A DNA stretch of 64,000 bases from positions 124,001 to 188,000 of the forward strand of contig JAMLHW010000008.1 in NCBI GenBank assembly GCA_023954475.1. Reading direction: 5' to 3'. Shown piece by piece: positions 24,480-43,946 of this stretch; position 1 is the first letter of the stretch; every line of letters starts with the position of its first letter. Source of the stretch: Anaerolineae bacterium (GTDB taxonomy: Bacteria > Chloroflexota > Anaerolineae > Promineifilales > Promineifilaceae). Below the pieces are notes generated by a model. The model ran no database searches. It was not told where the DNA came from and saw nothing but the letters and a program-made list of their open reading frames with translations. Both the position numbers and the translations under genes were made by a program.

Positions 24480-25325
24480 CTACCGGGCAGCGCCCATATC
24501 CCAGTCGACTGTGCCGGCATCCGTGATGCCACTCAGATCTTCAGCATCCTTCTCCAGCATGCTGATAGCGATGTCGTCAAATTCAAACACAGTCCATACA
24601 TTAAACGGATTAAATTTCATGCCTGCCGCCAAATGGAGATATTGGCCCGGCTCAATGGTGACGCGCTCATAACGGCCCATCTGGGCGCACGATTCAAGCC
24701 CATTCGGGCAGGGGACGACACCAGGTTCAAACGGCGTGGTGTAATCTGTAATATAGAGTTCACGCCATTCGCTGGAATCGACCATCGTCGCATCGGCTTC
24801 ACTACTAATGGCATAGAAAGCTACGGAGTTGGCGACAGTACCTTCCTGAACAAAAGCTGAATTCGGACCGGCCATCCACCAGCCAAATTCACCCCACATC
24901 GTGCCGTGTACCTGAACCCAGTAGTCGCCTGCGTGCGTGATATCGCTGAGTTCGTTGGTTGCATACATAAAGTGCGGTCCGTCACCACCAACATTGCGCA
25001 CAAACATACCTAACGCATCGTCCATGCCAGGCATGTCTGCGGTATCACGAACATCTGCCATGTTGATGTTGGCGTAATGCGAAACCCAACCGCTGGCATC
25101 ACTGTCGTAGCCTGTCCAACATTGGGCGAGGTTGGCAACGCTGTCACCCCAATACATGGGATCGAATGCACCGTTACAAATCAGACTGGGTCCACCGCCT
25201 TCGAGTTCGACTGCGCTCTTTGTGTCATCATAACGGGTAAGGTGGCCGTCAGCCAGCACAGTGCCGCCGACAAGCAATGCCAATACAAATACGAGAAGTG
25301 ATATGACTGCAAATCGCCTAGACAT
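24480..25325 (-). CDS. Secreted protein of unknown function
   Basis: A 281-residue protein with a signal peptide (FAVISLLVFVLALLVGGTVLADG). The mature part is rich in Trp, Asp and aromatic residues: NGAFDPMYWGDSV, YWVQVHGTMWGEFGWWMAGP, GQYLHLAAGMKFNPF. It looks like a beta-sandwich extracellular domain, possibly carbohydrate-binding, but I recognise no family. The ATG at 25325 follows CTAGGAGG. It has its own promoter with an inverted repeat in the spacer and its own terminator, so it is a single regulated gene. Confidence 0.75.
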   Translation of the reverse strand: MSRRFAVISLLVFVLALLVGGTVLADGHLTRYDDTKSAVELEGGGPSLICNGAFDPMYWGDSVANLAQCWTGYDSDASGWVSHYANINMADVRDTADMPGMDDALGMFVRNVGGDGPHFMYATNELSDITHAGDYWVQVHGTMWGEFGWWMAGPNSAFVQEGTVANSVAFYAISSEADATMVDSSEWRELYITDYTTPFEPGVVPCPNGLESCAQMGRYERVTIEPGQYLHLAAGMKFNPFNVWTVFEFDDIAISMLEKDAEDLSGITDAGTVDWDMGAAR

Positions 25326-25487
25326 AGTAGTCCTCCTAGAATGTCTTATTGTTGGTTGTATAGAAGTTTTGGTAATTGAAAGTGGTGCAAACGAATTCAC
25401 TGTGCACTACATAGAGTCCCTCCGGTGATCGGTTCACGCAAGAAGACTGGATTGAAGTGGTGTTATGTTGCGTGAATTGGCTACGAT

Positions 25488-25709: not shown

Positions 25710-28700
25710 TTATGATTCGACAAGTGCTGCTTCCAACCGGCTTGCCAGTGATGTGACATGTGGCTCTTCCAGGATATTGCGATGACTTCCAGCAACCATA
25801 CACACGTTTACGCCGCCGAGTGCCAGATTAGCCCAGCCCATCAGTGGGTCGCCTGCCCGCAGTAGAGAAAGACGCTTGACGCGGTAAAGTGTCACGACAC
25901 CGGGATATGGCTGTGGTTTATAGCGGATTTGCGCCTGAATCTGTGTTTCAAACATGCGGCGTGCATGGGTGGGAATTGTTTGCATTTGATCCCCAAGGAT
26001 GTCCGTGGAGGTGACTGGTTTTTTTCGGCCGAAACGTCGCAACACCCTGTTGCCTGTCATCCGCGCCCGACGTCGCACAGCAGACCACGATTCTGTGCCG
26101 CCCTGCTCAATATAATCGCCTATCCAGTAAGGTAGATTACGTGCGAAATTGAGCCATTCACGTGGGCGTCGCCAAATCGCCCGACCTCCTGGCCCCAGCG
26201 GAGCATAGCCTTCAAATATAGCCAGATGGGCAACGGCTTCACCCTGTGCAACTAACCGACAGGCCATTTCATACGCTACCAGTCCGCCAAAACAATAACC
26301 GCCGAGACGATACGGACCTTCCGGCTGAACGGCACGCAGCAACGCCAGATAACGCTCCGCCATCGCTTCTACCGAGGTGTCGGGCTGCTCCGCCCCATCG
26401 ATGCCGACTGCCTGTAGTCCGTAAAACGGCTGATCCGGCCCTATGTTTCGTGCCAGCGCAGCGTAGCCGAGCACGCCGCCACCGATGCCGTGCACGCAAA
26501 AGAATGGTGGCCGCTCTCCTTGCGGCTTGATGGGCACGAGGATCGACCAATCGGCCGAATCTTCTTGTGACCGCAGCACATTGGCCAACTGACCCACCGT
26601 CGGTGCGCGAAACAGGGCTGCCAGTGGCGCACGCACACCGATACGCTCCTCGATTGCCGCAAACAGGCGAATCGCCAGCAGCGAATGACCACCCAAATCA
26701 AAGAAATTGTCATCGCGGCCGACCGGGTGAACTGCCAGTATATCCTCCCAGATGTGGGCGAGTTGCGTTTCCAGACCATCTTCAGGGGGCAGATAGACAG
26801 CGACGGCGACATCGGCGCGACCCGGTTGTGGCAGTTGGCGCATATCGATTTTGCCGGTTGGCGTCAGCGGCAAAGCGTCAATCAGCACAATGGCCGCTGG
26901 AACCATGAACTCGGGTAACTGCGCCAACAAATAGTCGCGTAGCGTTGTCGTTGTCGGCTGTGTACCGGCGGCCGACACAATGTAAGCAATCAATCGCGCC
27001 TGACCGTTTGTATCGGTATCTGCGCGGACCACGGCACTTTGGACAGCGTCGTGCTGCATCAACACGACCTCGATTTCGCCCGGCTCTACGCGATAGCCGC
27101 GAATTTTGACCTGGTGGTCGGCACGACCGAGGAAGTGGAGGTTGCCGTCGGCGCCATAGCGGGCGAGATCGCCGGTCTTGTAAAGAAGCATGGAGGATGA
27201 AGGATGACGGATGAAGTGATCGGCGGTGAGCTTCGGCCGATTCCAGTAGCCACGCGCCGGCAAATCGCCGCCAATATAGAGTTCACCTGTTACGCCGACG
27301 GGAACAGGCTGCATGTGCGCGTCGAGCAAGTGGATGGCAGCATTGGCGATGGGTCGGCCGATAGGAGGCAGCGTCGGCCAATGATCGAGCGAGTGGCTCA
27401 GCGTGTGGGCCGTGGCGACATGCGTTTCGGTGGGGCCGTATTGATTGGTCAGTGTGCAGTTGGGCAATCGGGAGAAAAATCGGCCGATTGCCGGTGTGAT
27501 GCGCAACTGTTCACCCGCTGTAATCACTTCGCGCAGCGCGTCAGGTGTTATGTGCGTCTGTCGATCCGCCGCTTCAGCCAGTGCGTTCAGTGCTACAAAC
27601 GGCAAAAACAGGCGTGCAATTTGCTGCCCGGCAACGAGGCTGAGAAGAATTGACGGTTCGCGTCGCACGACATCGGCAATCAGCACCAGTGTACCGCCAA
27701 AACAAAGGGTGCTGAAAATCTCCTGAAAGGCGACATCAAAACTCAATGAAGTCAATTGCAGCGTACGCGCACCAACCGTTAATTGCGATTGTGTCTGTTG
27801 CCAGGTTACGAGGTTTACCAATGGCCGATGTGGCATGGCAACCCCTTTCGGCCGACCGGTACTGCCTGACGTGTACAAAATGTAAGCCAATGAGTCTGGT
27901 GTCGCATAATGCGTCGGCGCAAGCGATTTTCGTGGCAGGTAAATGGTGTCGAGATTGACTATCAAATCGGCCGAATCGGGCAAACGCGCTACAGTCACAT
28001 TTTGCGCAAGAATTAATAGGGGACGGCATTCTTCGATCAACAGCGACAGCCGCGCCGTCGGAAACGTCGGGTCGAGCGGCACGACTGCGCCACCCGCTTT
28101 CAAGATAGCGAGTACGGCCACGATTTGTTGCGGCGAGCGCACTAACGCCACGCCTACGGGAATATCCGGGCCCACACCTCTGTTTTGCAAGAAATGGGCC
28201 AACCGGTTAGCCTGCTCGTCCAGTTCACGATAACTGACTTCGCGTTCATCGATCAACAGGGCACAGACTTCAGGCGTTCGCGAGACTTGATCCGCAAAGA
28301 GGTCCTGCAGACAACGGTTTGGATAAATTGCATTCGTAGCGTTCCAGGCAGCAAGTTCAGCACGTTCTGCATGCGTGAGCAGCGGCAGCGCCATGACCGG
28401 CTGCTGCGGATTGGCCAAAGCACCGGTCAGGACTGTCTCCAAATGGCTGAGCAGCCGTGTCATGGTCGATGTGTCGAACAGATCGGCATTGTATTCGAGG
28501 AGGAGCCGCAAGCCGTCGTCGCGCGGAATGGCAAACAGCGTGAGGTCAAATTTGCTGTAGGTACGCGTTAGAGGGAAGCGCGTAACGGTCAAATCGCCAA
28601 ATTCCGGCAAGGTATCGGCTTGCTGCAAGACGAAAAGCACCTGAAACAGTGGATTGCGTCCCAGATCGCGTTGCGGTTGCAGTGCTTCGACGATTTGCTC

Positions 28701-29798
28701 GAATGGAAACGCCTGGTGCTCAAAACCGTCCAGCACTGTCATATGAACCTGCTTGATCAGTTCCTCGAAGCTGGTATTTTCGTGTAGTCCGCAGCGCAAA
28801 ACCAGAGTATTGAGAAACAAACCGACCACATTGGCGACTTCAGGCTGCTCGCGGTTGGCAATAGGGCTGCCGATCAGGACGTCGTTTTCGGCCGAATAAC
28901 GGCCCAACAGTACTGCAAACGCACTGAGCAGCGTGGTAAATAATGTGACGCGATGCTCACGGCTAAACGCCTGCAGTCGGTCGAGCAGATCACGTGATAG
29001 GTGATGATCCGCCGCAGCTCCGCGCGTAGTCAATTCGGCCGGGCGCGGTCGATCGGTGGGCAAGGCCAATTGGGCTGGTGCATGTGCCAATTGCTCGATC
29101 CAATATGTTCGGTCAACAGTGAAGGCATCGCTGCCGACTTGATCGCGCTGCCATTGCGCGTAGTCACTATATTCAATTGGGGAGCCTTGCAGTTTTGCCG
29201 TCGTGCCATTGCGCTGTGCAGCATACAATGCCGCCAAATCGCGCAACAAAATGCCCATCGACCACTCATCACCGCAAATGTGGTGTAACGCTAGCAACAG
29301 CACGTTGTCGTCATGGCGCAAGCGGATCAGGTTACAGCGAAAAAGGGGACCGGTTGCGAGATCGAAAGGCTCGTTGGCAGCCGTTTGAATGAGTTCGCGT
29401 GTTGCGAGTTCACTTTCGGCCGAATCGATCGCACGCAAATCATGTACAGTCAGCGGCACACTTTCCCATTCAGTCAGACACTGCACGGGCACGCCTTCCA
29501 CTAAGGGAAACGTCGTGCGCAGTGCTGCATGACGGGCAACCAATTGCGCTAGCGTTGCTTGCAGAGCGTTCACATCGAGCGGCCCGCGCAATCGCAAAGC
29601 GGGTGTCATGTGATAGGCTGCGTTGGCTTCACCCAGTTGATTGAGAAACCAGAGACGTTCCTGAGCAAACGATAACGGTGCGGGACCCGCATCCGAACGA
29701 TGCGCAATGGTTGGCACGTTGCCTGCTAAATCAGTTTCCGCCAGCAGTTGATCGAGGAGCGCCCGCTGGGCGTCAGAAAATTCAAACGACGCCGTCAC
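25710..29798 (-). CDS. Nonribosomal peptide synthetase, C-A-T-TE (termination module)
   Basis: 1362 residues. Condensation domain about 38-440, with HHICGDEWS in place of HHXXXDG (His173 catalytic). Adenylation domain about 480-975 with YTSGSTGRPKGV; by eye alignment to GrsA its pocket reads D-V-Q-F-I-A-Q-V-A(-K), nearest to proline codes. Carrier domain near 1000-1065 (DLGGHSL). Thioesterase about 1090-1355 whose elbow is GYCFGG: Cys1169 (codon 26292-26294) replaces Ser. It should condense the last residue and release the product by hydrolysis or cyclisation. The GTG start overlaps the previous stop (GTGA). The assigned substrate is tentative. Confidence 0.92.
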   Translation of the reverse strand: MTASFEFSDAQRALLDQLLAETDLAGNVPTIAHRSDAGPAPLSFAQERLWFLNQLGEANAAYHMTPALRLRGPLDVNALQATLAQLVARHAALRTTFPLVEGVPVQCLTEWESVPLTVHDLRAIDSAESELATRELIQTAANEPFDLATGPLFRCNLIRLRHDDNVLLLALHHICGDEWSMGILLRDLAALYAAQRNGTTAKLQGSPIEYSDYAQWQRDQVGSDAFTVDRTYWIEQLAHAPAQLALPTDRPRPAELTTRGAAADHHLSRDLLDRLQAFSREHRVTLFTTLLSAFAVLLGRYSAENDVLIGSPIANREQPEVANVVGLFLNTLVLRCGLHENTSFEELIKQVHMTVLDGFEHQAFPFEQIVEALQPQRDLGRNPLFQVLFVLQQADTLPEFGDLTVTRFPLTRTYSKFDLTLFAIPRDDGLRLLLEYNADLFDTSTMTRLLSHLETVLTGALANPQQPVMALPLLTHAERAELAAWNATNAIYPNRCLQDLFADQVSRTPEVCALLIDEREVSYRELDEQANRLAHFLQNRGVGPDIPVGVALVRSPQQIVAVLAILKAGGAVVPLDPTFPTARLSLLIEECRPLLILAQNVTVARLPDSADLIVNLDTIYLPRKSLAPTHYATPDSLAYILYTSGSTGRPKGVAMPHRPLVNLVTWQQTQSQLTVGARTLQLTSLSFDVAFQEIFSTLCFGGTLVLIADVVRREPSILLSLVAGQQIARLFLPFVALNALAEAADRQTHITPDALREVITAGEQLRITPAIGRFFSRLPNCTLTNQYGPTETHVATAHTLSHSLDHWPTLPPIGRPIANAAIHLLDAHMQPVPVGVTGELYIGGDLPARGYWNRPKLTADHFIRHPSSSMLLYKTGDLARYGADGNLHFLGRADHQVKIRGYRVEPGEIEVVLMQHDAVQSAVVRADTDTNGQARLIAYIVSAAGTQPTTTTLRDYLLAQLPEFMVPAAIVLIDALPLTPTGKIDMRQLPQPGRADVAVAVYLPPEDGLETQLAHIWEDILAVHPVGRDDNFFDLGGHSLLAIRLFAAIEERIGVRAPLAALFRAPTVGQLANVLRSQEDSADWSILVPIKPQGERPPFFCVHGIGGGVLGYAALARNIGPDQPFYGLQAVGIDGAEQPDTSVEAMAERYLALLRAVQPEGPYRLGGYCFGGLVAYEMACRLVAQGEAVAHLAIFEGYAPLGPGGRAIWRRPREWLNFARNLPYWIGDYIEQGGTESWSAVRRRARMTGNRVLRRFGRKKPVTSTDILGDQMQTIPTHARRMFETQIQAQIRYKPQPYPGVVTLYRVKRLSLLRAGDPLMGWANLALGGVNVCMVAGSHRNILEEPHVTSLASRLEAALVES

Positions 29799-32700
29799 GC
29801 TTTGTCTCCAGCTGTTTGCAATTGGGCTTGCGCCTCTGCATCAGACAGCCGCGCCACGTGGAGGACGATTGCTGCGGTTTTTTCCAGTCGCACCTGATCG
29901 GCTGCGGTAGGCGCCAGGGCAGTCAGCAAACCGGCCGGTGTCGGCGTGTTGAACAAGGCACGCAGGGTCAGCGGTATGCGCAACGTGGCAGTGATGCGTG
30001 AGACGAGCTGCACAGCTAGCAGGGAATGGCCGCCCAAATCGAAGAAATTGTCGTGCAAACCGACGACCGGCAGATTGAGCAGTTCAGCCCAGAGGCTGGT
30101 CATGACAATTTCGGCCGAACTGGTTGCTTTCGACTCGATTGGTATTGCAGAATCGGCCGAATCAGTCGCGATCAACGCTTTGCGGTCGATTTTGCCCGAA
30201 GTCGTCAGTGGCAGCGCTTGCAGCAACGCGATGGTAGCCGGTTGCATGGCGCTCGGCAGCAGCGTGGCGAGATGAGTGCGAATGGCTTCAGAAGCAAGCG
30301 CCGCATTGCTCGGCACGACGTAGGCTGCCAATTGCAGGCCACCGTCATCCATTTCACGCGAAACAACGACGGCCTCGGCGACATCGGGATGTTGGCGTAG
30401 TGCTGCTTCGACTTCGCCTAATTCAACGCGCACACCGCGAATTTTGACTTGATCATCGGTTCGGCCGATAAACTCGAGATTGCCGTCGGGCAGCCAGCGG
30501 ACGCGGTCACCGGTGCGATAGGAACGGGTTGTAGGTGAAGGATGAGAGATGAAACGGGTTTGTGTGAGCTCGGGTTGATTGAGATAACCGAGTGCTACGC
30601 CCGCGCCGCCGATACAAAGTTCGCCGGGAATGCCGATGGGAGCGGGATTGCCGTAGTGATCGAGGACATAGGCGCGGACATTATTGAGCGGTCGGCCGAT
30701 TGGCATTGTATGTAACGACTTCGTGTCGCTCGGTTCAAATGCGGTGGCGACGACGGTAGTTTCGGTCGGCCCGTAGGTGTTGACCCAGCGCACATCGGTA
30801 CCGGTGCGTTCACGCCATTGCCGGTATGTGTCCAGCCGTGCCGCTTCACCGCCGACGATGACAAGGCGCACACAAGCCGGAAACATGTGCCGGTCGCGTT
30901 GCATTTCCGCTACCCAACTGTGCCAGAATGCCGTCGGTAAGTCGAGTACGGTGATGGCATTGCGTTCTATCTGCCGGGCGAAGTCGGCAAAGGTGTCGGG
31001 TAGATCAATCGGGCGCAGCACCAGTGTACCACCGGCAGCCAGCGTCGGGAAAATTTCCTCGACGGCGGTATCAAACGCCGGCGACGCAAATTGCAACACG
31101 CGATCTGTCGGGCCGATGTCGTATCGTTCAATCGCGTCCGCTACAAAATTGACCACAGCGCGATGGGATATGGTGACACCTTTCGGCCGACCGGTGGAGC
31201 CGGAAGTGTAGATGACGTAGGCAGCAGACGGCGGAAGACGAAAATCGGAGGGCGGAAGGCTGCAAACTGATAGTTGACTGTCAACACCTGATTGCTGCAA
31301 GCTGATCTGCGCGCCGGAATCACTGATTTGGAAGTCGCGCCTGGCAGTTGGCATTTCCGGATCGAGTGGCAGATAGGCAGCACCAGACTTGAGCACGCCG
31401 AGGATGGCAATAATCCATTCGGCCGAACGGGGCAGCTCCAGCGCCACAACAGCTCCGGCACCAACGCCTCGGCTCTGCAACAGCGCTGCCAGTTGATTGG
31501 CACGTTGATCGAGTTCGGCGTAACTCAGCGACCGATCGCCGGCGATGAGCGCCGTCGCGTGCGGTGTGCGGACAGCCTGTGCCTCAACCATCTGGTGAAC
31601 GCCGTCAATATCGGGTAGCGGCATCGTGGATCCTGACCACTGCATCAACTGTGCTTTTTCGGCAGTGGTCAGGAGTGGCAGCGAACCAATCGGCCGATTC
31701 GCGTTTTCCAAAATGCCGTCGATCAATATTTGCAGGTGATCAAGCAGCCGCGAAATGGTTTGTGGTCGGTACAAATCAGTGTCGTATTCAATCGTCAGCG
31801 CCAACCGTTCCGATTCGTCATGAATGACAAGAGATAAATCGTGAGATGCTGCCTGATCGCGCATCGATTGCTGTTCGACTTCCAGCCCGGCCAATTGCAG
31901 CGGCTGCATTGGCGTGTTGAGGTAGTCGAACATCACCTGGAACAGCGGCGTATGGCCGGGAATGCGGTCCGGTTGTAACTCTTCTACCAGTTTCTCGAAG
32001 GGCAGCGTCTGGTTGGCAAACGCGTCCAGAGCTGTCCGGCGCACCTGCCTCAACAAATCGATGAAAGTCGGATTGCCGGATAAATCGGTGCGCATGACCA
32101 GCGTATTGATAAAAATGCCGACAAGCGGAGTGGTGTCAACCGGGGTGCGTCCGGCAATCGGGACGCCGATGAGCAGGTCGGTAGCGCCCGTATAGCGATG
32201 CAGCAGCACGTTAAACAATGCCAGTATGGTCATAAACGGCGTGGCTTCGTGTGCATGGCTGAATGACCGGATGGCGCGGGATGTTTCGGCCGAAAGTGTT
32301 GCACGCTGTGTGGCCCCGGTCATCGTCGGTATGCTCGGTCGCGGAAAATCAGTTGGCAGTTCGAGAAGCTGCGGTGCACCGTCCAATTGGCGCAGCCAAT
32401 ACGACAGTTGTTTGTTTTCGGCCGAACTGTCTGTCTGTTGACGCTGCCAGACGGCGAAATCGACGTACTGAATCGGCAAATCGGGCAGATCGGGTGCCGT
32501 TCCGCTGCTAAACGCGGCGTAATAGTGGGCCAATTCGCGGTTGACAATGCCGACTGACCAGCGATCGGACGCAATGTGATGTGAAATGCGCAACAAAACA
32601 TGATCGTCTACTGCCAGCCAGAAAAGCACGTGGCGCCACATGGGAATGGCCGCGAGATCAAACGGGCGTTGTAATTGTTCTCGGATCAATTCCTGCAGAC

Positions 32701-33109
32701 GGGATTCCTGTTCGGCCGAATTCAGATCGCTCAGATCGACGACCGGCAAAGGGATCGCGGTAGGCGGTTGTACGGTTTGCAGCGGTTCGGTGTCACCCAT
32801 CGCGTACGTCGTGCGCAACGCGCTGTGGCGGTTGACAAGCGCGTCGATAGCCCGGCGCAGCGCAGCGACATCGAGTGAACCTCGCAACCGGTTGACGCTG
32901 TAGCGGTGATAAGCGGCATTGTCCGGTTCGAGTTGCTGCAGAAACCATTGACGGCGCTGACTGAACGAGAGCAGCGCGGGACCGTCGTCCGGGCGACGCG
33001 GGATGGTTGCAGCAGACGTTGCAGCGCGGGTCTTTTGCCGCAGCCGTTGTTCCAGCAGCGCCCGTTGTGCAGGTGTTAATTTGGCAAGTCGTTGGTCAGT
33101 GGCACTCAT
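29795..33109 (-). CDS. Nonribosomal peptide synthetase, C-A-T (elongation module)
   Basis: 1104 residues. The condensation domain has SHHIASDRWS (about residue 178). The adenylation domain includes IYTSGSTGRPKGV and TYGPTETTVVAT; its pocket by eye alignment to GrsA is D-T-E-D-I-G-T-V-V(-K). The extra acids E and D in the pocket suggest a basic side chain, but I cannot name the residue. The carrier domain has DLGGHSLLAVQ near residue 1045. The ATG at 33109 shares a base with the stop of the loading-module gene (TGATG), and its own stop overlaps the next gene, so the three synthetases are translated in series. Confidence 0.92.
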   Translation of the reverse strand: MSATDQRLAKLTPAQRALLEQRLRQKTRAATSAATIPRRPDDGPALLSFSQRRQWFLQQLEPDNAAYHRYSVNRLRGSLDVAALRRAIDALVNRHSALRTTYAMGDTEPLQTVQPPTAIPLPVVDLSDLNSAEQESRLQELIREQLQRPFDLAAIPMWRHVLFWLAVDDHVLLRISHHIASDRWSVGIVNRELAHYYAAFSSGTAPDLPDLPIQYVDFAVWQRQQTDSSAENKQLSYWLRQLDGAPQLLELPTDFPRPSIPTMTGATQRATLSAETSRAIRSFSHAHEATPFMTILALFNVLLHRYTGATDLLIGVPIAGRTPVDTTPLVGIFINTLVMRTDLSGNPTFIDLLRQVRRTALDAFANQTLPFEKLVEELQPDRIPGHTPLFQVMFDYLNTPMQPLQLAGLEVEQQSMRDQAASHDLSLVIHDESERLALTIEYDTDLYRPQTISRLLDHLQILIDGILENANRPIGSLPLLTTAEKAQLMQWSGSTMPLPDIDGVHQMVEAQAVRTPHATALIAGDRSLSYAELDQRANQLAALLQSRGVGAGAVVALELPRSAEWIIAILGVLKSGAAYLPLDPEMPTARRDFQISDSGAQISLQQSGVDSQLSVCSLPPSDFRLPPSAAYVIYTSGSTGRPKGVTISHRAVVNFVADAIERYDIGPTDRVLQFASPAFDTAVEEIFPTLAAGGTLVLRPIDLPDTFADFARQIERNAITVLDLPTAFWHSWVAEMQRDRHMFPACVRLVIVGGEAARLDTYRQWRERTGTDVRWVNTYGPTETTVVATAFEPSDTKSLHTMPIGRPLNNVRAYVLDHYGNPAPIGIPGELCIGGAGVALGYLNQPELTQTRFISHPSPTTRSYRTGDRVRWLPDGNLEFIGRTDDQVKIRGVRVELGEVEAALRQHPDVAEAVVVSREMDDGGLQLAAYVVPSNAALASEAIRTHLATLLPSAMQPATIALLQALPLTTSGKIDRKALIATDSADSAIPIESKATSSAEIVMTSLWAELLNLPVVGLHDNFFDLGGHSLLAVQLVSRITATLRIPLTLRALFNTPTPAGLLTALAPTAADQVRLEKTAAIVLHVARLSDAEAQAQLQTAGDKA

Positions 33110-35001
33110 CACTCGTCTGCGGCAAGTAATTGGGCGATGTCGTCATCGCTCAACCCTGCGATATCGTTCAGGAGATCGTCGAGTTCATCGGCCGAAAGCT
33201 GGTCAAGTTGTGCCTGTACGACGAAATCCGCCAATTGACCCAATTGGGGCGCTTCAAACAAGGCTGTTTCGCTCACATTCAGACCGAGATCGACGCGCAG
33301 ACGTGAAATGACTTGTCCGGCACGCAGTGAATCGCCGCCAAGAGCGAAGAAATCGTCGTTGAGGCCAACCTGTTCCAGATTGAGGATGTCGGCCCAAATC
33401 GCTGCGATTTGCTGCTGCAGCGGTGTTTCCGGTGCAACGAACGGAGCGGACGCTTCCCACTGCGGCTGCGGCAATGCTTTGTGGTTGACTTTGCCGAACG
33501 GCAGCAGCGGCAGTGCGTCGAGCGTCATAAAGGCGGATGGAATCATGTACGGCGGTAATTTGCTGATGAGATGGGCACGGAGTTCGGCCGAATCGATCAC
33601 TTTTCCCGATTGTGGCACATTGTATGCGGCAAGTGCCAACTCGCCCGGTTCCCGTTCGAGCGCCACAACGGCCGTTTCGCGAACGCTTTCCAGTTCGAGT
33701 AGCGCAACTTCAACTTCGGCCGTTTCCACGCGATTACCGCGAATCTTGACTTGTCCATCCGCCCGTCCCAGATGCATCAACTCCCCGTTGGGCAGCCACT
33801 GGCCGAGGTCGCCGGTCAGATAAATGCGCTCATCGCTGCCGGGTACAATGCGGTAGGAAGCGGCTGTCGCTTCCGGATCGCGCCAGTAACCGGGTGAGAG
33901 ATAGCGGCTACGAACGGCGATTTCACCGCTCGTGCCTTCCGGAACCGGATTGCCGTCAGCATCGACCAGGTCAATGTGCATATCGGGCGTGATAATGCCT
34001 AGCGACACCAACGGTGCATCGACAACGGAGTCGTGATCGAGGATCTTGTAAGTTGCCAGGTACGTTTCCGTAGAACCGAGTCCGGATCGTAGCACCGCGC
34101 CGCGTGGAAAATGGCGTTTGAAATTGTCGATGTCGTGCCGGTAGACCGGTTCGCCACCCAACTTGAGAATGCGCATATCGGGAAACATGTCGTTCGGGCC
34201 AAGTGTAAATATCAGGTGGCGAAAAACGGTGGGGACGGAATGGTAAGTCGTAATGCGTTCACGGCGCAGCCAGTCCGCCAGCCCATCAATGCCTTGCCGC
34301 TTGACGCTGTAGGGCAGCAGTTTACCGCCGAGCAGTAGTGCCCCAAAGGTGTTGATGACCGATGCGCCGAAGGAGGGTGACAGTAATTGGGCAAAGCGGT
34401 CGTCGGACCGGTGGCGCAAGACCGGCGCCGTGATGAACAGGGCATGCAAGGTGTTGCGCTGCGCCTGAATGACGCCTTTCGGCCGACCGGTGGAGCCGGA
34501 TGTAAACATGACATTGACGTAGGCATCGGGCGGTACGGGTAGGCAAAGATTTTCGGCCGAAGTCGGCAGTGTGACCCTATCGACATCGATCCAACTGCCG
34601 TCGCCGACCAACTGCGCTGCCATCGCAGCATGTTGTCGGTCTGTCAGGGTCACCTGTGGATCCGCTGCGTTAAAGATGGCTGCCGAACGGGCTGCGGGAT
34701 GCTTGGGATCGAGCGGTACATAATATTTGCCCGCTTTTAGCACGGCCATCATCGCCACATAGAATCCGGGACCAGCGCCAAAGAGCAGGGCAACCGGGGC
34801 CGGATCTGGTCCGAAACGGTTTACGAGTAGCCGGGCTATCTGGTTGGCTTTCGCATTGAATTCAGCGTAACTGATTGCGTGATCGTCGACTTTGACGGCG
34901 ATGCGATCGGGAAAATGTGCAACAACTTGCTCAAATCGCGGTGCGATGCCGGCTTCGAGATCGGGTACTGCTTCGAGGTCTATACGGGTCTCTGGTATCA
35001 T
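33109..35001 (-). CDS. Nonribosomal peptide synthetase, A-T loading module with unusual pocket
   Basis: 630 residues: adenylation domain about 20-500 (FTSGSTGRPKGV, LTGDLGQWLPNGE, GRADGQVKIRGNR), carrier domain with GGDSL (Ser558), then an acidic tail rich in L-S-D-D that may be a docking peptide. There is no condensation domain, so it starts the chain. The residue aligning with GrsA Asp235, which holds the amino group of amino acids, is Gly (SPSFGASVINTF). This points to a substrate without a free alpha-amino group, such as a keto, hydroxy, N-blocked or other carboxylic acid. The ATG follows AGGGAA. Confidence 0.9.
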   Translation of the reverse strand: MIPETRIDLEAVPDLEAGIAPRFEQVVAHFPDRIAVKVDDHAISYAEFNAKANQIARLLVNRFGPDPAPVALLFGAGPGFYVAMMAVLKAGKYYVPLDPKHPAARSAAIFNAADPQVTLTDRQHAAMAAQLVGDGSWIDVDRVTLPTSAENLCLPVPPDAYVNVMFTSGSTGRPKGVIQAQRNTLHALFITAPVLRHRSDDRFAQLLSPSFGASVINTFGALLLGGKLLPYSVKRQGIDGLADWLRRERITTYHSVPTVFRHLIFTLGPNDMFPDMRILKLGGEPVYRHDIDNFKRHFPRGAVLRSGLGSTETYLATYKILDHDSVVDAPLVSLGIITPDMHIDLVDADGNPVPEGTSGEIAVRSRYLSPGYWRDPEATAASYRIVPGSDERIYLTGDLGQWLPNGELMHLGRADGQVKIRGNRVETAEVEVALLELESVRETAVVALEREPGELALAAYNVPQSGKVIDSAELRAHLISKLPPYMIPSAFMTLDALPLLPFGKVNHKALPQPQWEASAPFVAPETPLQQQIAAIWADILNLEQVGLNDDFFALGGDSLRAGQVISRLRVDLGLNVSETALFEAPQLGQLADFVVQAQLDQLSADELDDLLNDIAGLSDDDIAQLLAADE

Positions 35002-35017
35002 GATTCCCTGTGCTGTC

Positions 35018-35725
35018 TCAGGTTAGCGGCGCTTGCCAATAAAGGGCCGATGCCCAACCGTAATGGACGATGCGCCCATCCGGAAAATGCGCGCCGTATG
35101 TCATTTCAAATGTATCAGGTGTCAGACGCAAACCGCGCGAGCGATGGCGCAGCCACGCTGGATGTAGTTCGAATTTTAGCAAACGCAGCGCCGTTCGCAC
35201 ATCATAACGACGCATGTACGATGGAATGCGTTTCAGCGTGCGTGCTATCTGGTAGGGAGTTGAGTGTGATTGGTGTGAATCTTTTGCGACCAGATCGCGC
35301 ACCATCAGGTGCCCGCCGGGGCGCAGCAATCGTTTTAGGGCGGTCAGTGCCGGGGCCAGTGCTATGTCGTGCAGCGCGTTGTCGCTGCCAATGAAGTCGA
35401 ATTGGTGCGAAGGCAGCGGAGCACGGAGCAGGTCGCCCAAGACGAAGGTGATATTGTCATGCGTTTGCCGAGCAGGATTCTGTTGTGCGCTTTTCAGCAT
35501 GGCGATTGACAGATCGAGGCCGATGACTGAATCAAAGTGCTCGGCGAGGTAGTATGTAAGATAGCCGGGACCGCAACCGACATCGAGGGCGCAGCGGCGC
35601 TCGGCAGGCAGGAAGGTATCGAGTTCGGCCGAATAATTGCGCGGTGTAATGTGTGTTGCCCAAAACGCGAAGTCGTCTGCAAAGCGGTTGAATACGTCTG
35701 TTTCTTTGGAAGTAGTGTGTGGCAT
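35018..35725 (-). CDS. SAM-dependent methyltransferase of the NRPS operon
   Basis: A 235-residue class I methyltransferase: motif I LDVGCGPGYLTYYLAE near residue 44, GLDLSIAML, and LLRPGGHLMVRDLV. Its place between the sulfotransferase (2-nt gap) and the loading module (16-nt gap) suggests that it methylates the peptide or its precursor. Whether it acts on O, N or C cannot be told from the sequence. Confidence 0.88.
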   Translation of the reverse strand: MPHTTSKETDVFNRFADDFAFWATHITPRNYSAELDTFLPAERRCALDVGCGPGYLTYYLAEHFDSVIGLDLSIAMLKSAQQNPARQTHDNITFVLGDLLRAPLPSHQFDFIGSDNALHDIALAPALTALKRLLRPGGHLMVRDLVAKDSHQSHSTPYQIARTLKRIPSYMRRYDVRTALRLLKFELHPAWLRHRSRGLRLTPDTFEMTYGAHFPDGRIVHYGWASALYWQAPLT

Positions 35726-35727
35726 TT

Positions 35728-36573
35728 TCAGGTGACAAGATCAGGATAGAACGCTTCAAGCAGCTCGAAGGGGACGCAGCCGCTGCGGATCGCTTCAACC
35801 TGATCCGGTGTCAATTCGTCCCGCCATTTGTCTGGCTGGTCGGCGGCGACACGCGAGACGGAAAAAGCGGTCTCGTCAGGACGGAGAGGGCGATTGTGTG
35901 ACTGCAAAAAGGCGCGACCACGCGCGGTCTGCTGCAATCCAAAATGGGTCAACAAGTTCGCAAAACCCGTTTCCGGGTCAACGCACAGCGATTCGTGTGT
36001 GACCCAGGCCCATTCGGGATGCTTGGCAGCGATGCGCTGCATGACAAAATAGGATGCACCCCAAAAGACGCCCAATCGGTAAAAAGAATCGGAGGAGGCG
36101 TGCATGTGATCGACAAACGGTGCCAGGTGATCGGCGATGAGTCGGGGTTGATTGAGCAGCAAATCGACGCGTTGGTTGGTGTTGAAGTTGACGCGTTGCC
36201 AACTGGCGGCAAAAGCGAACGGATTGCGGATGATGATGACGATATTCGGCCGAAATTGTTCCCAAATATATTCCGTCGCCAACCCTGCGTGCACATCTTT
36301 GAGGATAATCGCTTTGGCGCGCATCGCTTTAAGCATGCGTCGCGGTCGCCACGGCGTGCTCAATTCTCGTTTGAAGATAGAAAGAAAAGGCGCATCATCC
36401 GCACCGGCAGGCAAATAACGCATCTCGAACGCGCGTCGTTCGGGATGGAACTCTGCATTGTACGGCTCGTAGATCAACAGGCCCTGCAGCGCTGCCGTAA
36501 TGGCGGCGGCTGTCCACGAACTGCCCGAACGCGGCAGACCTGTAACAAAAAAGAGAGGCTTGCGGCGGCTCAC
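35728..36573 (-). CDS. PAPS-dependent sulfotransferase-like protein
   Basis: A 281-residue sulfotransferase-fold protein. The 5'-phosphosulfate loop FFVTGLPRSGSSWTAA is at residues 8-23 and the 3'-phosphate motif VIIIRNPFAFAASW is near 110-123. It would move a sulfuryl group from PAPS to a hydroxyl or amine. The GTG start has CGGAG upstream. It lies 2 nt before the methyltransferase and 4 nt after the permease gene, tying sulfur supply to the peptide pathway. Confidence 0.85.
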   Translation of the reverse strand: MSRRKPLFFVTGLPRSGSSWTAAAITAALQGLLIYEPYNAEFHPERRAFEMRYLPAGADDAPFLSIFKRELSTPWRPRRMLKAMRAKAIILKDVHAGLATEYIWEQFRPNIVIIIRNPFAFAASWQRVNFNTNQRVDLLLNQPRLIADHLAPFVDHMHASSDSFYRLGVFWGASYFVMQRIAAKHPEWAWVTHESLCVDPETGFANLLTHFGLQQTARGRAFLQSHNRPLRPDETAFSVSRVAADQPDKWRDELTPDQVEAIRSGCVPFELLEAFYPDLVT

Positions 36574-36577
36574 GGTC

Positions 36578-37354
36578 TTACTCCGTGCGCTGGTGCCAGG
36601 GCGTAAGCAAACGCGTCAGCCAATGCATACACCCATTGAACAAGACTCCGAGAATCATCAAAACGGTGAGACTGACGTACATCGTTTCTGTGCGCATCGT
36701 TTGCCAGGAAAACCAGATAATCGAACCCAGACCTTCTTTCGCCGTGATAATTTCAATGGCGACCGTCAACAGTAGCGTCAGATTGAGTGCAAGCAGCACG
36801 CCGGTCAGCACAGACGGCAAACTGCCCGGCAAAACGACGCGCGTAAACAGTTTGAATCGGTTCGCGCCGTAGTTGGTCGCAACCTGAGTCAGAATGGGAT
36901 TGATCTGGCGCACACCGGCTGCCGTACTGAGCAGAATCGGAAAGAAAGCACCAAATGCCGCAATAAAGATTTTTGAGCCTTCACCGACACCTAAAAAGAC
37001 CATGATCAACGGAAAGATGGCGATTTTGGGAATGGGGTGAATGGCGGCGATGATGGGGTCGAGGACTATCGCCAATCGGCGCGACTGTCCCATCAGCAAG
37101 CCGAGGATGAGTGCAGGAACGCCGCCGATGAGCAGGCCGAGCAGCACGCGGAGCAGCGTCGCGCGTGTATGAAGCCACAGATCGCCGCTAGCTGCCATGT
37201 CGAGCAGCGAGCGACCGATCATCGTCGGTGCGGGAAACAATAGTGGCTTGATTAAGCCAATACGTGAGCCAGTTTCCCAGATGAGGAGCAGCGACAGCAA
37301 TATAACTGCCGGCAGTGCACGCTCCCAGCGAAACTGTTTCCAATGCGACGTCAT
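36578..37354 (-). CDS. ABC transporter permease, NitT/TauT type
   Basis: 258 residues with about six membrane helices and the BPD_transp_1 coupling loop ATNYGANRFKLFTRVVLPGSLPSVLTG. It resembles SsuC/TauC permeases. The ATG at 37354 overlaps the ATPase stop as ATGA. With the ATPase and the binding protein it forms a complete importer, probably for a sulfonate, nitrate-like or other small organic anion. Confidence 0.9.
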   Translation of the reverse strand: MTSHWKQFRWERALPAVILLSLLLIWETGSRIGLIKPLLFPAPTMIGRSLLDMAASGDLWLHTRATLLRVLLGLLIGGVPALILGLLMGQSRRLAIVLDPIIAAIHPIPKIAIFPLIMVFLGVGEGSKIFIAAFGAFFPILLSTAAGVRQINPILTQVATNYGANRFKLFTRVVLPGSLPSVLTGVLLALNLTLLLTVAIEIITAKEGLGSIIWFSWQTMRTETMYVSLTVLMILGVLFNGCMHWLTRLLTPWHQRTE

Positions 37355-38163
37355 GCGCTCGCTGTTGCTTCTGTATCCGGCAGTGCCAGATTGTGCCTCA
37401 CGTCGGCTTCGATGTTCTTCCAAATGCGCCATGACAACTCTTGTACGTCAGGGTGATTGCGGTTGCGCATATCGCGCGGTCGTGTGGTCGGCACGACAAA
37501 TTCAGCTTGAATGCGTCCCGGTCGGCCGCTCATGACCAGTACGCGGTCACCTAGCAGCACGGCTTCCTCAATGTCGTGGGTAACGTAGACTACGGTTTTT
37601 TGATGGTCTTTCCAGATGCGCAGCAATTCTTCCTGCATGACGAGTTTGCTCTGCGCATCGAGGGCACTGAATGGCTCGTCCATGAGCAGCAAGCGCGGGT
37701 CGCTGAGGAAAGCACGGGCAATGGCAGCGCGTTGTCGCATGCCGACCGATAGCTGATGTGGGTAGTGGTTGGCAAAAGCGGCCAGACCGACCTGACCCAG
37801 AAAATCACGCGCCAAGGTATGTCGTTTCGGCCGATTGACACCCTGCATTTCTAACCCAAACGCTACATTGTCCAGAATTTTCATCCACGGAAACAGACCG
37901 TGTTCCTGAAAAACCAGTGCATTGGGCAAGCGGCCATCTTCAGGGTTATCGTCAAATTGCAAAACGCCGCTGCTGGGTTGCAGTAATCCGGCCAGGAGCT
38001 TGAGCAACGTTGTTTTGCCGCAGCCACTCGGTCCGACCAGACACACAAACTCACCGTGGCGTACACGAAAACTGACCTCGCCCAATGCGGCGACGATGCC
38101 TTCGCGTGCATCGTAACGCTTGCTGAGATTGTGGCAGGTGACGGCGTACGTTGTCTGACTCAC
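37351..38163 (-). CDS. ABC transporter ATPase, NitT/TauT type
   Basis: 270 residues with Walker A GPSGCGKTT, Q-loop FQEHGLFPW, signature LSVGMRQRAAIARA and Walker B LLLMDEPFSALD. SsuB/TauB-like ATPases power import of sulfonates, nitrate or similar compounds. It starts with GTG. A 14-bp hairpin separates it from the binding-protein gene. Confidence 0.93.
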   Translation of the reverse strand: MSQTTYAVTCHNLSKRYDAREGIVAALGEVSFRVRHGEFVCLVGPSGCGKTTLLKLLAGLLQPSSGVLQFDDNPEDGRLPNALVFQEHGLFPWMKILDNVAFGLEMQGVNRPKRHTLARDFLGQVGLAAFANHYPHQLSVGMRQRAAIARAFLSDPRLLLMDEPFSALDAQSKLVMQEELLRIWKDHQKTVVYVTHDIEEAVLLGDRVLVMSGRPGRIQAEFVVPTTRPRDMRNRNHPDVQELSWRIWKNIEADVRHNLALPDTEATASA

Positions 38164-38174
38164 GGGAAAAGGTC

Positions 38175-38207
38175 AGAAACCGAGTTTCTGGCTGAAACTC
38201 GGTTTCT
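38175..38207. repeat. 14-bp perfect hairpin between binding-protein and ATPase genes
   Basis: AGAAACCGAGTTTC (38175-38188) and GAAACTCGGTTTCT (38194-38207) pair perfectly over a 5-nt loop. This may protect the upstream binding-protein mRNA and lower expression of the rest of the operon. It belongs to the same GAAACC-type family as the hairpins at 1645 and 21,360. Confidence 0.7.
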
Positions 38208-38216
38208 TGCTGCTGG

Positions 38217-39329
38217 CTAATTGCCCAGAGCAGCGTTAGCGGCTTCGACGAAGGACGGATCGTAGATTTGCTCAGCGGTCAACGGTGCATCCATGACGCC
38301 GTTGGCAACAGCCCAATCCTGAAAGTCGAGAACGCTTTCCATATTGACGGTTCCGTCGTCACGTAAAGTGGGCCAGCAAATGTTTTCGAGCAGATTAGGA
38401 TCCATTTCAATATGGTTGAGTAGAATCTCCAGATTGCGATCTGTTTTACCTTCGTTATATTGTGCTACCGACTGCAAATAGGCGATCATGAAGCGTTCAC
38501 CAATGGATGGATCGCCATTGAGGAGATTGGGGCCGAAATACATGACGGCGTTTTGAGAGTCAGCCATCAATTCAGTAACGGGTGACAAGACGGGTACGTG
38601 GCCGTTGTTACCGTGAATGACGATCCACGGCTCGCTGTTGAGTGTGATGTCAATCGTACCATCCGCCAGTGCCTGTGGCTCTGCGGGAACGGGCAGGTCT
38701 GATTGCACAATTTGATCTTTGGCAACGCCGATTTCTGCTAACTGTTTGTCCAGATAGTATTCGAGCCAGGTAGCGGGTACGACATCGACTTTCATGCCGT
38801 CCCAGGCAGTCGGATCGTTGAAATCGGTCGATTCGACTAATTCCTTGCGTGCGATCAGCCCATAATTTTCACAGCCATCCGGATCGACGAATCCTTTGTC
38901 AGAGACGAATTTCAACTCACCACCGCGTGCGATAGCGTTCAGCACACCGGCGGATACCAGTCCGGAAGCGACGTCGACCTGTCCGCTGGCAAGCGCCGGC
39001 ACGATGTCGCGCAGCACGGTCATATTGACCAATTCGACATCGAGACCCTGGTCGGCAAAATAGCCTTCGTCCACGCCGATGTAGTATGGTGCAAAGGAAA
39101 TGAACGGCAGAATGACAACTTTGAGCGGCGTCATTTCAGTTGTTTCGGCATCGGCCGAATCAGTGTCGGGTTCATCACTTTCGGCAGCAGGTTCGGCCGA
39201 TGTGTCTTCTTGTGCAGCCGTGGTCGGCTCAGCCGTAGCGGCCGATTCAGTGCTATCATCCGTTGTGCCGCACGCGACAAGTAAGAGCAGAATGGTTAAC
39301 AACAGAAGCCAACGATTATTGAAACGCAT
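38217..39329 (-). CDS. ABC substrate-binding lipoprotein, NitT/TauT (NMT1-like)
   Basis: A lipoprotein signal with lipobox LLVAC at about residues 16-20, then an acidic Ser/Thr/Glu-rich spacer and a periplasmic-binding fold of the NMT1/SsuA group (IGVDEGYFADQGLDVELVN, ALASGQVDVASG, TAWDGMKVDVVP). It captures the transported compound at the cell surface. The ATG at 39329 follows CGGAGG. It opens the operon that runs through the importer into the sulfotransferase and NRPS genes. Confidence 0.88.
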   Translation of the reverse strand: MRFNNRWLLLLTILLLLVACGTTDDSTESAATAEPTTAAQEDTSAEPAAESDEPDTDSADAETTEMTPLKVVILPFISFAPYYIGVDEGYFADQGLDVELVNMTVLRDIVPALASGQVDVASGLVSAGVLNAIARGGELKFVSDKGFVDPDGCENYGLIARKELVESTDFNDPTAWDGMKVDVVPATWLEYYLDKQLAEIGVAKDQIVQSDLPVPAEPQALADGTIDITLNSEPWIVIHGNNGHVPVLSPVTELMADSQNAVMYFGPNLLNGDPSIGERFMIAYLQSVAQYNEGKTDRNLEILLNHIEMDPNLLENICWPTLRDDGTVNMESVLDFQDWAVANGVMDAPLTAEQIYDPSFVEAANAALGN

Positions 39330-39516
39330 TTCCAATCCTCCGCATAATGGTTATTGATTGTTGTGGTAGAATGGCTCCAGATTCTTCCACATACAGGTCT
39401 TTTGGTGTCAAATCTATGGATGTTCGCAATCAACTGTGTGCGACCTAGATTTATTTGATGCAGTCGCAGCCCAACTTCGGCACAGTTTTCATTGTCAGAC
39501 CGTGGCAATATCTGAG

Positions 39517-39587
39517 AGCGGCTATCGGGACTCGAACCCGAGATAACAGCTTGGGAAGCTGCTGTGTTACCACTACACCATAGCCGC
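39517..39587 (-). tRNA. tRNA-Gly (CCC anticodon)
   Basis: The minus strand folds as a cloverleaf: acceptor stem GCGGCTA/TAGCCGC, D arm with GTGT/ACAC, anticodon stem GCAGC/GCTGT around loop TTCCCAA (anticodon CCC), and T arm CGGGTTCGAGTCCCG. The discriminator base is T, and CCA is not encoded. The flanks (39330-39516 and 39588-39713) hold no gene. Confidence 0.93.
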
Positions 39588-39713
39588 AAGATGCCGGCGA
39601 TTATATTTCGGCGCTGATGGCGTGTCAAATCGCAGTTTGACTACTCAAAGCCATATAGTAGCGCGTTTTTGCTATTGCAGACATGGCTGTGAATGGCCGA
39701 ATAATGGCGGAAA

Positions 39714-41095: not shown

Positions 41096-42250
41096 TTACT
41101 CGCCGCCGGGCGCCAATTCGACTTCGATCTTCTCGAAATTTGCGCCGGTCGTATCGCCGTCGATACCTTCCAGCGCGGCCAGCGCGAGATCAGTGCGCAA
41201 TGCATCATCGCCCGGGTTTTCTGTGATAACGCCAAACTCGGTTGCGATGGCCACAGTCTGATCGTACAAAGCTTGATCCATGACGCCGACGCCGTTGGGT
41301 GACGGCCAGATCAGGTTATTGATCTCGTTCAACTGCCATTGCATGTGGCTTTCCCCCAACGTTGGGCCAGCGTCGAGAACGATTTGAACACAATCATCGA
41401 AGTTGTCGCGGCAGAATATCCAGCCCTGAAACGCGCCGCGCAAGAAGCGTTCGGCGATGTCCTCGTTGCCTTCCTCGGCCAGCCAGTCACCGCGCACAAA
41501 GATATGGTCCTGCAACATCGCTGTGCCGACATCGTTGTAGTCAAACACGGTAAAATCTTCCGGCTGGTACAGTTCGCCCGTTTCCGGATTAGTCGCTTCG
41601 AGCAATTGGGCGTACTCGTTGTATACCTCGGCCTGAGCGACATCGATTTCGCGATTGAGCAGCAGCGACATGTCGAACGGCTGCTGGACGATGGTGACCT
41701 GGCTGGTGTCATCCGGCTCAATACCGGCCTGACGCAGTGCGGCGTACACTTCCCACTCGTTGCCGAAGCCCCATGTACCGACGCGCTTGCCGGCCCAATC
41801 AGCGACGGAGGTGATGCCGGAGTCGGCCCATGCTACCTGCTGTGTGCCGGAGCGCTGGAAAACCTGCGCAATGTTGACCAAATCCGCGCCCTGTTCGCGT
41901 GAAGCGAGCATTTTGGGCACCCAGGCGATGCCGAACTCGGCATCACCGGCGGCGACGACCTGCTGCGGCACGATTTCAACCGCGCCTTCTTTGATGGTTA
42001 CGTCGAGGCATTGGTCAGCCCAGAATCCTTCTTCGAGTGCGGCATAGTAACCGGCGAATTGGGATTGCGTGACCCATTGCAATTGCAAACTGACCGGAGT
42101 GAGTTCGTCACATTCGGCCGAATCACTTGTCTCAGTTTCCCCACTTTCGGCAACCGTTTGCCCATTATCTGTATCTGCGCCACTGCATGCTGCCAAACTC
42201 AGTGCGGCAAGTGCAAGTAATAAAATCATCAACCAAACTTTGCGTGTCAT
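41096..42250 (-). CDS. ABC substrate-binding lipoprotein (THI5/NMT1-like)
   Basis: A lipobox ends the signal (ALSLAAC, near residue 22). The mature protein has the NMT1/THI5-like pattern: VSLQLQWVTQSQFAGYYAALEEGFW near residue 54, then GKRVGTWGFGNEWEV near 150. This branch binds pyrimidine-like or flavin-like ring compounds in characterised systems, so a nitrogen heterocycle is a reasonable guess here. The ATG at 42250 follows CTGGAGG. It ends the minus-strand operon that begins with the DUF2877 gene. Confidence 0.88.
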   Translation of the reverse strand: MTRKVWLMILLLALAALSLAACSGADTDNGQTVAESGETETSDSAECDELTPVSLQLQWVTQSQFAGYYAALEEGFWADQCLDVTIKEGAVEIVPQQVVAAGDAEFGIAWVPKMLASREQGADLVNIAQVFQRSGTQQVAWADSGITSVADWAGKRVGTWGFGNEWEVYAALRQAGIEPDDTSQVTIVQQPFDMSLLLNREIDVAQAEVYNEYAQLLEATNPETGELYQPEDFTVFDYNDVGTAMLQDHIFVRGDWLAEEGNEDIAERFLRGAFQGWIFCRDNFDDCVQIVLDAGPTLGESHMQWQLNEINNLIWPSPNGVGVMDQALYDQTVAIATEFGVITENPGDDALRTDLALAALEGIDGDTTGANFEKIEVELAPGGE

Positions 42251-42369
42251 GTTTCCTCCAGATTTTCTCCCAAACAACAATGTCAGAGTAACTTTTTCGT
42301 CTCGATAGGAACCTCCTTTAGTGGGCACATTCTGCTGGTTGGCTGAAATCATCCCACAATCCGACTACT

Positions 42370-43143
42370 TTATGTCGTTTGTTTGCGCACCGAACTGTGC
42401 CACGGAATGATGAGCCGTTCCGCCACAAGAACCACGGCGTAAAGGGTGATACCGACGATGCAGGCGATGATGATGCCGGCCCAGGCGTTGGCAAACCGGA
42501 ACTGCGCCGCTTCCTGCGTGATGAAAATGCCCAGCGCCGAGCGATTGCCGCCGAAATATTCGCTGACCACCGCGCCGATCATACTCAGCGGCACAACCAC
42601 CTTGAATGCATTGAAGATGTAGGGCATCGCGTTGGGGATACGCAAATGCCAGACGATGCGAAAGTCGCTGGTTGCAAAGGACCGCATCATCTCTAATGCA
42701 TTGGCGTCGACCAGCGTCAGGCCGCGCACCGTGTTGATCATCATGGGAAAAAAAACGATAACGGCGACGATTACCATTTTGGACAGGGGATTGTCGACGC
42801 CGAACCAATTGTTGACGATGGGTGCAAACGCCAGAATCGGTACGGAGTTTGCGGCGATGGCAAATGGCATCATGGTTTCGCTGGCAATCGTCCAGCGTGC
42901 TGTAATCAGCGCCACGCCGATGCCGGCTGTGCAACCGATGAGCAGGCCGCCAAGTGCTTCTTTGGTCGTGAACCAGCCAATGCTGACTAATCGGCCGAAA
43001 TTATCCGCAAAAGCCCGCCCTATCACCGATGGTGCCGGCAGCAAAAACTGCTGAATATCGAACAACTGCACAAACAGTTCCCAGACCACTATGGCCGCGA
43101 CAAACAACACAACTGCGGGCAGATAAGTGCGGGTGTGACTCAT
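42370..43143 (-). CDS. ABC transporter permease, NitT/TauT type (first of two)
   Basis: 257 residues with about six membrane helices. It carries FATSDFRIVWHLRIPNAMPYIF, the loop that contacts the ATPase, and PILAFAPIVNNWFG typical of the family. Its ATG overlaps the ATPase stop (ATGA). The importer has two different permeases, suggesting a heterodimeric channel. Confidence 0.9.
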   Translation of the reverse strand: MSHTRTYLPAVVLFVAAIVVWELFVQLFDIQQFLLPAPSVIGRAFADNFGRLVSIGWFTTKEALGGLLIGCTAGIGVALITARWTIASETMMPFAIAANSVPILAFAPIVNNWFGVDNPLSKMVIVAVIVFFPMMINTVRGLTLVDANALEMMRSFATSDFRIVWHLRIPNAMPYIFNAFKVVVPLSMIGAVVSEYFGGNRSALGIFITQEAAQFRFANAWAGIIIACIVGITLYAVVLVAERLIIPWHSSVRKQTT

Positions 43144-43928: not shown

Positions 43929-43946
43929 AACCTGCTCCAAAGCCTG

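Follow-up and report, generated by a model that had tools for sequence, protein, structure and literature searches.

An operon joining an SsuA/TauA-type importer to a three-module NRPS in an Anaerolineae bacterium, and a proposed uptake of its starter acid

The ABC importers SsuABC, TauABC and NrtABCD-CmpABCD share their component set, their Pfam families and the fold of the substrate-binding protein (SBP) with the importer described here; however, the full-length similarity between them is low, and the importer of our operon is genetically linked to acid-activating enzymes. Acid importers are also paired with acyl-CoA ligases in catabolic operons, in which an acid is likewise taken up and then adenylated; unlike in those operons, the acid activated here would be passed onto the carrier protein of an assembly line. 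Assembly lines are normally regarded as fed by the cell's own metabolism, and importers commonly adjoin nonribosomal peptide synthetase (NRPS) genes in siderophore clusters. The sulfazecin cluster (SulI, SulM and SulN) comprises three NRPS modules, one in-trans sulfotransferase and one Cys thioesterase (PMC11298585). Three NRPS modules, a sulfotransferase gene and a Cys thioesterase (TE) are also present in our operon; however, its TE does not have the Gln-Cys-Asn motif of the sulfazecin system, its last A domain is not of the Dap type, and it contains an importer. In the open-licence literature, we found no account of an importer taking up the starter of an NRPS, which is weak evidence of novelty.

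Layout of the operon and its surroundings

Eight genes are located on the minus strand at 25710-39329 of the window (the whole 64,000-nucleotide stretch analysed). They encode one SsuABC-type importer, one sulfotransferase, one methyltransferase and three NRPS proteins of A-T, C-A-T and C-A-T-TE organization (Table 1). From the SBP gene to the NRPS3 gene, the intergenic gaps are 53, -7, 4, 2, 16, -4 and -4 nt, and a terminator search of the window found no clear terminator between the eight genes; the strongest one lies past the next gene downstream of the operon. This arrangement supports the single operon proposed in the preliminary description, and the Pfam domains match the module order given there, with loading, elongation and termination units being colinear.

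The sole perfect sigma-70-type promoter match of the region is in front of the tRNA-Gly(CCC) gene that lies directly upstream of the operon, and it might also serve the operon. None of 51 relatives from the family has the operon, and the tRNA-Gly gene is a possible integration site; however, no attachment-site repeat of the tRNA-Gly end is present in the window, so tRNA-linked integration is not demonstrated. Downstream of the operon, there is a gene for a secreted protein with no Pfam family. A second importer adjoins the operon and is accompanied by one AllH-like gene and molybdopterin-dehydrogenase genes; it belongs to a different subfamily from the importer of the operon, and it looks like an uptake system for the catabolism of nucleobases or similar compounds.

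Table 1. Positions of the operon genes, neighbouring features and related genes at other loci (window coordinates unless a locus is named)
Feature	Position	Strand	Evidence or remark
SBP, SsuA/TauA/NrtA-fold substrate-binding lipoprotein	38217-39329 (ATG start; 39335 with TTG)	minus	Pfam NMT1; NCBIfam SsuA_fam weak; lipobox LVAC
Importer ATPase	37351-38163	minus	Pfam ABC_tran; best NCBIfam model TauB-like, below cut-off
Importer permease	36578-37357 (probable start; the ORF can reach 37432)	minus	BPD_transp_1; SsuC/TauC-like, below cut-off
PAPS sulfotransferase-family protein	35728-36573	minus	Pfam Sulfotransfer_1, weak: 25.8 bits, cut-off 22
SAM-dependent methyltransferase	35018-35725	minus	Pfam Methyltransf_11
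NRPS1, A-T loading unit	33109-35001	minus	Pfam AMP-binding/PP-binding; code GAIHKGGLA(K) by alignment
NRPS2, C-A-T	29795-33112	minus	Pfam Condensation/AMP-binding/PP-binding; code DTEDIGTVV(K)
NRPS3, C-A-T-TE	25710-29798	minus	Pfam Condensation/AMP-binding/PP-binding/Thioesterase; code DVQFIAQVA(K); TE motif GYCFGG
tRNA-Gly(CCC)	39516-39587	minus	ARAGORN + Rfam
Sigma-70-type promoter match	39600-39628 (39628-39600)	minus	perfect match, in front of tRNA-Gly
Strongest terminator	24443-24420
Secreted protein gene	24480-25400	minus	promoter-like site 25550-25521
Second importer	41096-44846	minus	NMT1/THI5-type SBP, permease, ATPase, permease
f541 gene, locus L112	6628-8253
f541 gene, locus L132	1922-3517
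f541 genes, locus L145	5547-7139, 8243-9838
f541 genes, locus L159	4080-5696, 6784-8400
A-T-acyltransferase fusion, L039	10483-13206		Lip_A_acyltrans domain
A-T-acyltransferase fusion, L115	6977-9718		recognised through 49% identity to the L039 fusion
A-T-acyltransferase fusion, L141	10931-14431		Lip_A_acyltrans domain; methyltransferase fused in front
Second NRPS cluster of the host, L040	G000:C20:218001-238000

The importer and the NRPS modules

Pfam, NCBIfam and fold comparison indicate that the importer is complete, with one NMT1/SsuA-fold SBP, one permease and one ATPase. NCBIfam places it near SsuABC and TauABC, yet it falls under every equivalog cut-off. The AlphaFold model of the SBP has a pLDDT of 89.9, and its nearest PDB folds are CmpA, NrtA, 3UN6, SsuA, TauA, ThiY and PqqT, with Z scores of 30-25; the full-length identity to the solved folds is low (12-18%). 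Component set, families and predicted fold agree in supporting the SsuA/TauA type assigned to the importer earlier. PBP-fold enzymes such as Thi5 and MqnD also match the SBP model; however, its lipoprotein signal, together with the pump genes next to it, favours a binding protein over an enzyme.

The A, T, C and TE domains of the three NRPS proteins are colinear, as in modular type I NRPS, and the core motifs HHxxxD and GGHS/GGDS are intact. The host genome, a 5.1-Mb draft with 21 AMP-binding genes, has PPTase genes and an MbtH gene outside the operon. In A domains, Asp235 is the residue that holds the alpha-amino group of the substrate; in NRPS1, this position is occupied by Gly (code GAIHKGGLA). 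A domains that take hydroxy, keto and aryl acids are known to have lost Asp235 (PMC11253843). With Gly at this position, the substrate of NRPS1 should not be an alpha-amino acid (cf. PMC10949194); His278 and Lys299 of the pocket hint that it is polar or acidic.

For NRPS2, the acidic pocket in DTEDIGTVV suggests that the residue added is probably basic; the corresponding code in the syntenic locus L070 is DFEDIGTIA. The NRPS3 code DVQFIAQVA, for which the counterpart in locus L113 is DVQYIAQVV, is close to what we take to be proline-type codes, and the predicted residue is proline-like. No publication of these exact specificity codes was found in the open literature, and the residue types are accordingly predictions from the pocket.

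Binding proteins of one clade adjoin acid-activating enzymes

No second example of the exact set of eight genes was found, and the search of the 51 relatives from the family gave no orthologue of the operon and none of NRPS1 with more than 40% identity. The best NRPS1 relatives in the first search were ∼40% identical; in a class-wide search, NRPS1 falls within a clade of stand-alone A-T proteins and A-T fusions. One uncharacterised cluster of Anaerolineae bacterium SJ719 (JADZCJ010000092.1; L070/L131), which belongs to another Anaerolineae family, carries the six core genes in the same order (SBP-ATPase-permease-NRPS1-NRPS2-NRPS3) and orientation and also ends in a Cys-TE. The identities to our operon are 47% for the SBP, 61% for the ATPase, 46% for the permease, and 38%, 42% and 41% for NRPS1, NRPS2 and NRPS3, respectively. 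Unlike our operon, the SJ719 cluster has neither sulfotransferase nor methyltransferase, a macrolide-type glycosyltransferase gene follows it, and the code of its last A domain is beta-alanine-like rather than proline-like. The earlier statement that no cluster of this exact make-up has been described holds in the open literature searched, but the core formed by the importer and NRPS1-3 does recur.

Other relatives are arranged differently. L078 has the order ATPase-permease-SBP-(A-T)-SBP-(A-T)-C-A-T-TE and L068 the order (A-T)-SBP-SBP-(A-T); L071-L074 and L080 are variations, in which some SBPs are of a related but distinct subfamily. L039 and L115 combine SBP, methyltransferase, A-T-acyltransferase and sulfotransferase genes. 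Gene calls in the relatives are simple longest ORFs, and most of the relatives are draft metagenome contigs. As a separate observation, the A-T proteins of L039, L115 and L141 are fused to a lipid-A-type acyltransferase domain and are followed by sulfotransferase-family genes; their acyl group is presumably passed to a sugar or lipid.

To avoid bias, the linkage between SBP and activating enzyme was tested by searches with the SBP alone. Among 396 genomes of the class, the SBPs of the clade mostly adjoin A-T or ligase genes; SBPs at a greater distance (∼100 bits), by contrast, are located in ordinary importer loci that lack such genes. When a profile built from six SBP sequences was run against 84,980 species genomes, it recovered 33 loci; they belong to Chloroflexota, Syntrophaceae, Desulfobacterales, Spirochaetota, Armatimonadetes, Acidobacteriota, Rhodobacteraceae and Methanoregula, among others. 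After removal of duplicates, 39 of 42 distinct clade SBPs (from Chloroflexota, Desulfobacterota, Spirochaetota, Armatimonadetes, Rhodobacteraceae and methanogens) have an acid-activating (ANL) enzyme in the locus, either an A domain, f541 or a PaaK-like protein; the match at L155 rests on a poorly called ORF. In 35 cases the enzyme is within 1.7 kb, mostly abutting or overlapping; the chance expectation of an AMP-binding gene within that distance is ∼3%, given the density in the host genome. L116, L149 and L154 are the clade SBPs with no ANL enzyme within the stretch fetched. Only 1 of 13 outgroup SBPs has such an enzyme in its locus (Fisher p ∼1e-8; 6e-8 when the loci first met through the NRPS search are left out). 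Several of the loci are short contigs with no pump genes, and where these genes are missing, it is in several cases because the contig ends.

The partner enzymes include A-T, A-T-TE and A-T-acyltransferase proteins, f541 and PaaK-like ligases, and acyl-CoA-synthetase-like enzymes; given this range, the common feature of the clade loci is acid activation rather than peptide synthesis. The partner f541 is a ∼540-residue protein of Syntrophaceae, Spirochaetota, Armatimonadetes and some Chloroflexota. The one member scanned has no Pfam or NCBIfam match, and profile comparison relates f541 to PaaK-like ANL members (probability 96, E 1e-9). In several loci f541 is linked to polysaccharide genes (flippase, deacetylase). 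The clade is also found in methanogenic archaea (Methanomicrobiales, Methanoregula; L153, L161 and L163). In one methanogen the partners are acyl-CoA-synthetase-like ligases; in L153, the clade member lies among four of them.

Tandem ligase/SBP pairs occur in L078/L138, L068/L142, L145 and L159, loci in which one set of pump genes or none was seen: the pair is found twice in L159 with one set of pump genes, and twice in L145 with no pump genes seen nearby. The distances between SBPs correlate with those between their partner A domains (Mantel r 0.58, p 1e-4, 17 pairs; 0.54 without the proteobacterial pair), in a set that leaves out the near-identical loci, which inflated r to 0.78; such a correlation can arise from linked inheritance as well as from a common ligand. 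Asp235 is missing from all 19 of the partner A-T A domains examined, whereas it is retained in most of the elongation A domains that these loci encode. The simplest reading of these sequence comparisons is that each SBP would bind the acid activated by its partner enzyme. A single acid is not indicated, since the pocket codes differ between systems.

Proposed pathway and alternative readings

We propose, with a probability of about 0.6, that the operon encodes a salvage-initiated NRPS pathway, in which an imported non-amino acid is loaded as starter, elongated twice, released and tailored. The SBP, ATPase and permease would import a small carboxylic acid from outside; NRPS1, whose substrate should be something other than an alpha-amino acid, would activate the imported acid and load it as the starter; NRPS2 would add one residue, probably basic, and NRPS3 one proline-like residue; the Cys thioesterase of NRPS3 would release the product, and the sulfotransferase and methyltransferase would modify either the acid or the product. 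That the ligand of the SBP is the substrate of the A-T protein we infer, as we do the residue types and the sulfation and methylation. The preliminary description had named the importer as a possible source of the starter acid, and this suggestion gains comparative support from the linkage of the SBP clade to ANL enzymes, the tandem pairs, the co-divergence and the loss of Asp235.

More tentatively, at somewhat below even odds, the clade loci may represent a widespread undescribed cassette, in which each acid has its own substrate-specific pair of an SBP and an activating enzyme (A-T, f541, PaaK-like or acyl-AMP ligase), often with one common pump. Acids taken up from other organisms would then serve bacteria and archaea in several phyla as building blocks of assembly-line products or surface polymers. 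If the importer is inherited and duplicated together with the loading enzyme, the starter would be foreign, and the product would couple the chemistry of neighbouring organisms; the ligand of the SBP, which is easily measured, would then reveal the substrate of loading enzymes with an unreadable pocket code.

Alternatively, the NRPS might make a secreted metallophore or other scavenging compound, which the importer retrieves as in siderophore operons. The position of the importer beside NRPS genes is usual for siderophore clusters, aryl-capped siderophores typically have a non-amino starter, and PqqT, one of the fold neighbours of the SBP, binds PQQ, a sizeable metabolite. However, we consider re-import unlikely. 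Many clade loci contain only an A-T protein or ligase; with the condensation domain absent, as in L068, L145 and L159, there is no peptide to re-import. In addition, the SBPs are duplicated along with the activating enzyme, their fold is of the nitrate/sulfonate/thiamine-precursor type, and no metal-related partner was seen beside the operon.

In the sulfotransferase, the PAPS-site motifs PRSGSS and RNPFAFAAS (5'-PSB and 3'-PB of Sulfotransfer_1) are intact, and so is the SAM motif DVGCGPG of the methyltransferase. The sulfated and/or methylated product predicted before is hence plausible. The genome-wide search gave no close relatives of the sulfotransferase, and its class-wide relatives are distant only (best 27-32%). 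L039, L115 and L141 also have genes of the sulfotransferase family, which belong to other subfamilies. In L115 and in the Syntrophaceae locus L133, SBPs of the clade are accompanied by homologues of the methyltransferase (32% and 35%, respectively), so that this gene may be part of the ancestral cassette.

The sulfotransferase gene directly follows the importer genes, whose best NCBIfam matches, though below cut-off, are SsuC/TauC/TauB-like; the importer could on these grounds take up a sulfonate or sulfate ester as the sulfur source of the sulfotransferase. This second suggestion of the preliminary description is less supported than that of the starter acid, and we regard it as very unlikely: the host genome has, outside the operon, APS kinases that serve PAPS synthesis, the operon has no sulfonate monooxygenase, the SBP matches CmpA and NrtA at least as well as SsuA, and most loci of the importer clade have activating enzymes but no sulfotransferase, the common partner being the acid-activating enzyme.

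It is highly improbable that the SBP and importer act as a membrane tether or regulator of the synthetase, in the manner of CesC/D for cereulide, rather than as a transporter: CesC/D, unlike the pump of the operon, is not an SBP-dependent importer, the operon has the full importer set, including the extracytoplasmic lipoprotein, and duplication of the SBP tracks the activating enzyme. The precedent for such a role is the part played by the ABC transporter CesC/D in the assembly of the cereulide synthetase line, as reported in PMC7527721.

Least probable of all, and rejected here, is a monobactam pathway, in which the Cys thioesterase would form an N-sulfonated beta-lactam as it does for sulfazecin. 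The number of modules (three), the presence of sulfotransferase and methyltransferase genes and the nucleophilic Cys of the TE would suit it. However, the operon departs from the published SulTE criteria in two respects: the TE motif is Tyr-Cys-Phe (GYCFGG) instead of Gln-Cys-Asn, and the code of the last A domain reads as proline-like instead of Dap-like. Besides this, the operon has no Dap-synthesis gene, and Cys-TEs with GYCFGG or similar motifs are common in the related NRPSs of the class. A further published criterion is a catalytic Asp at position II, after strand beta7; in the NRPS3 sequence, a conserved Asp stands close to position II, and position I is occupied by Glu.

The host genome contains a second NRPS cluster (L040), which by eye is spread over at least five genes and includes acyl-CoA dehydrogenase-, PhyH-type oxygenase- and methyltransferase-looking genes; two sulfotransferase-like genes and one glycosyltransferase gene lie on the opposite strand.
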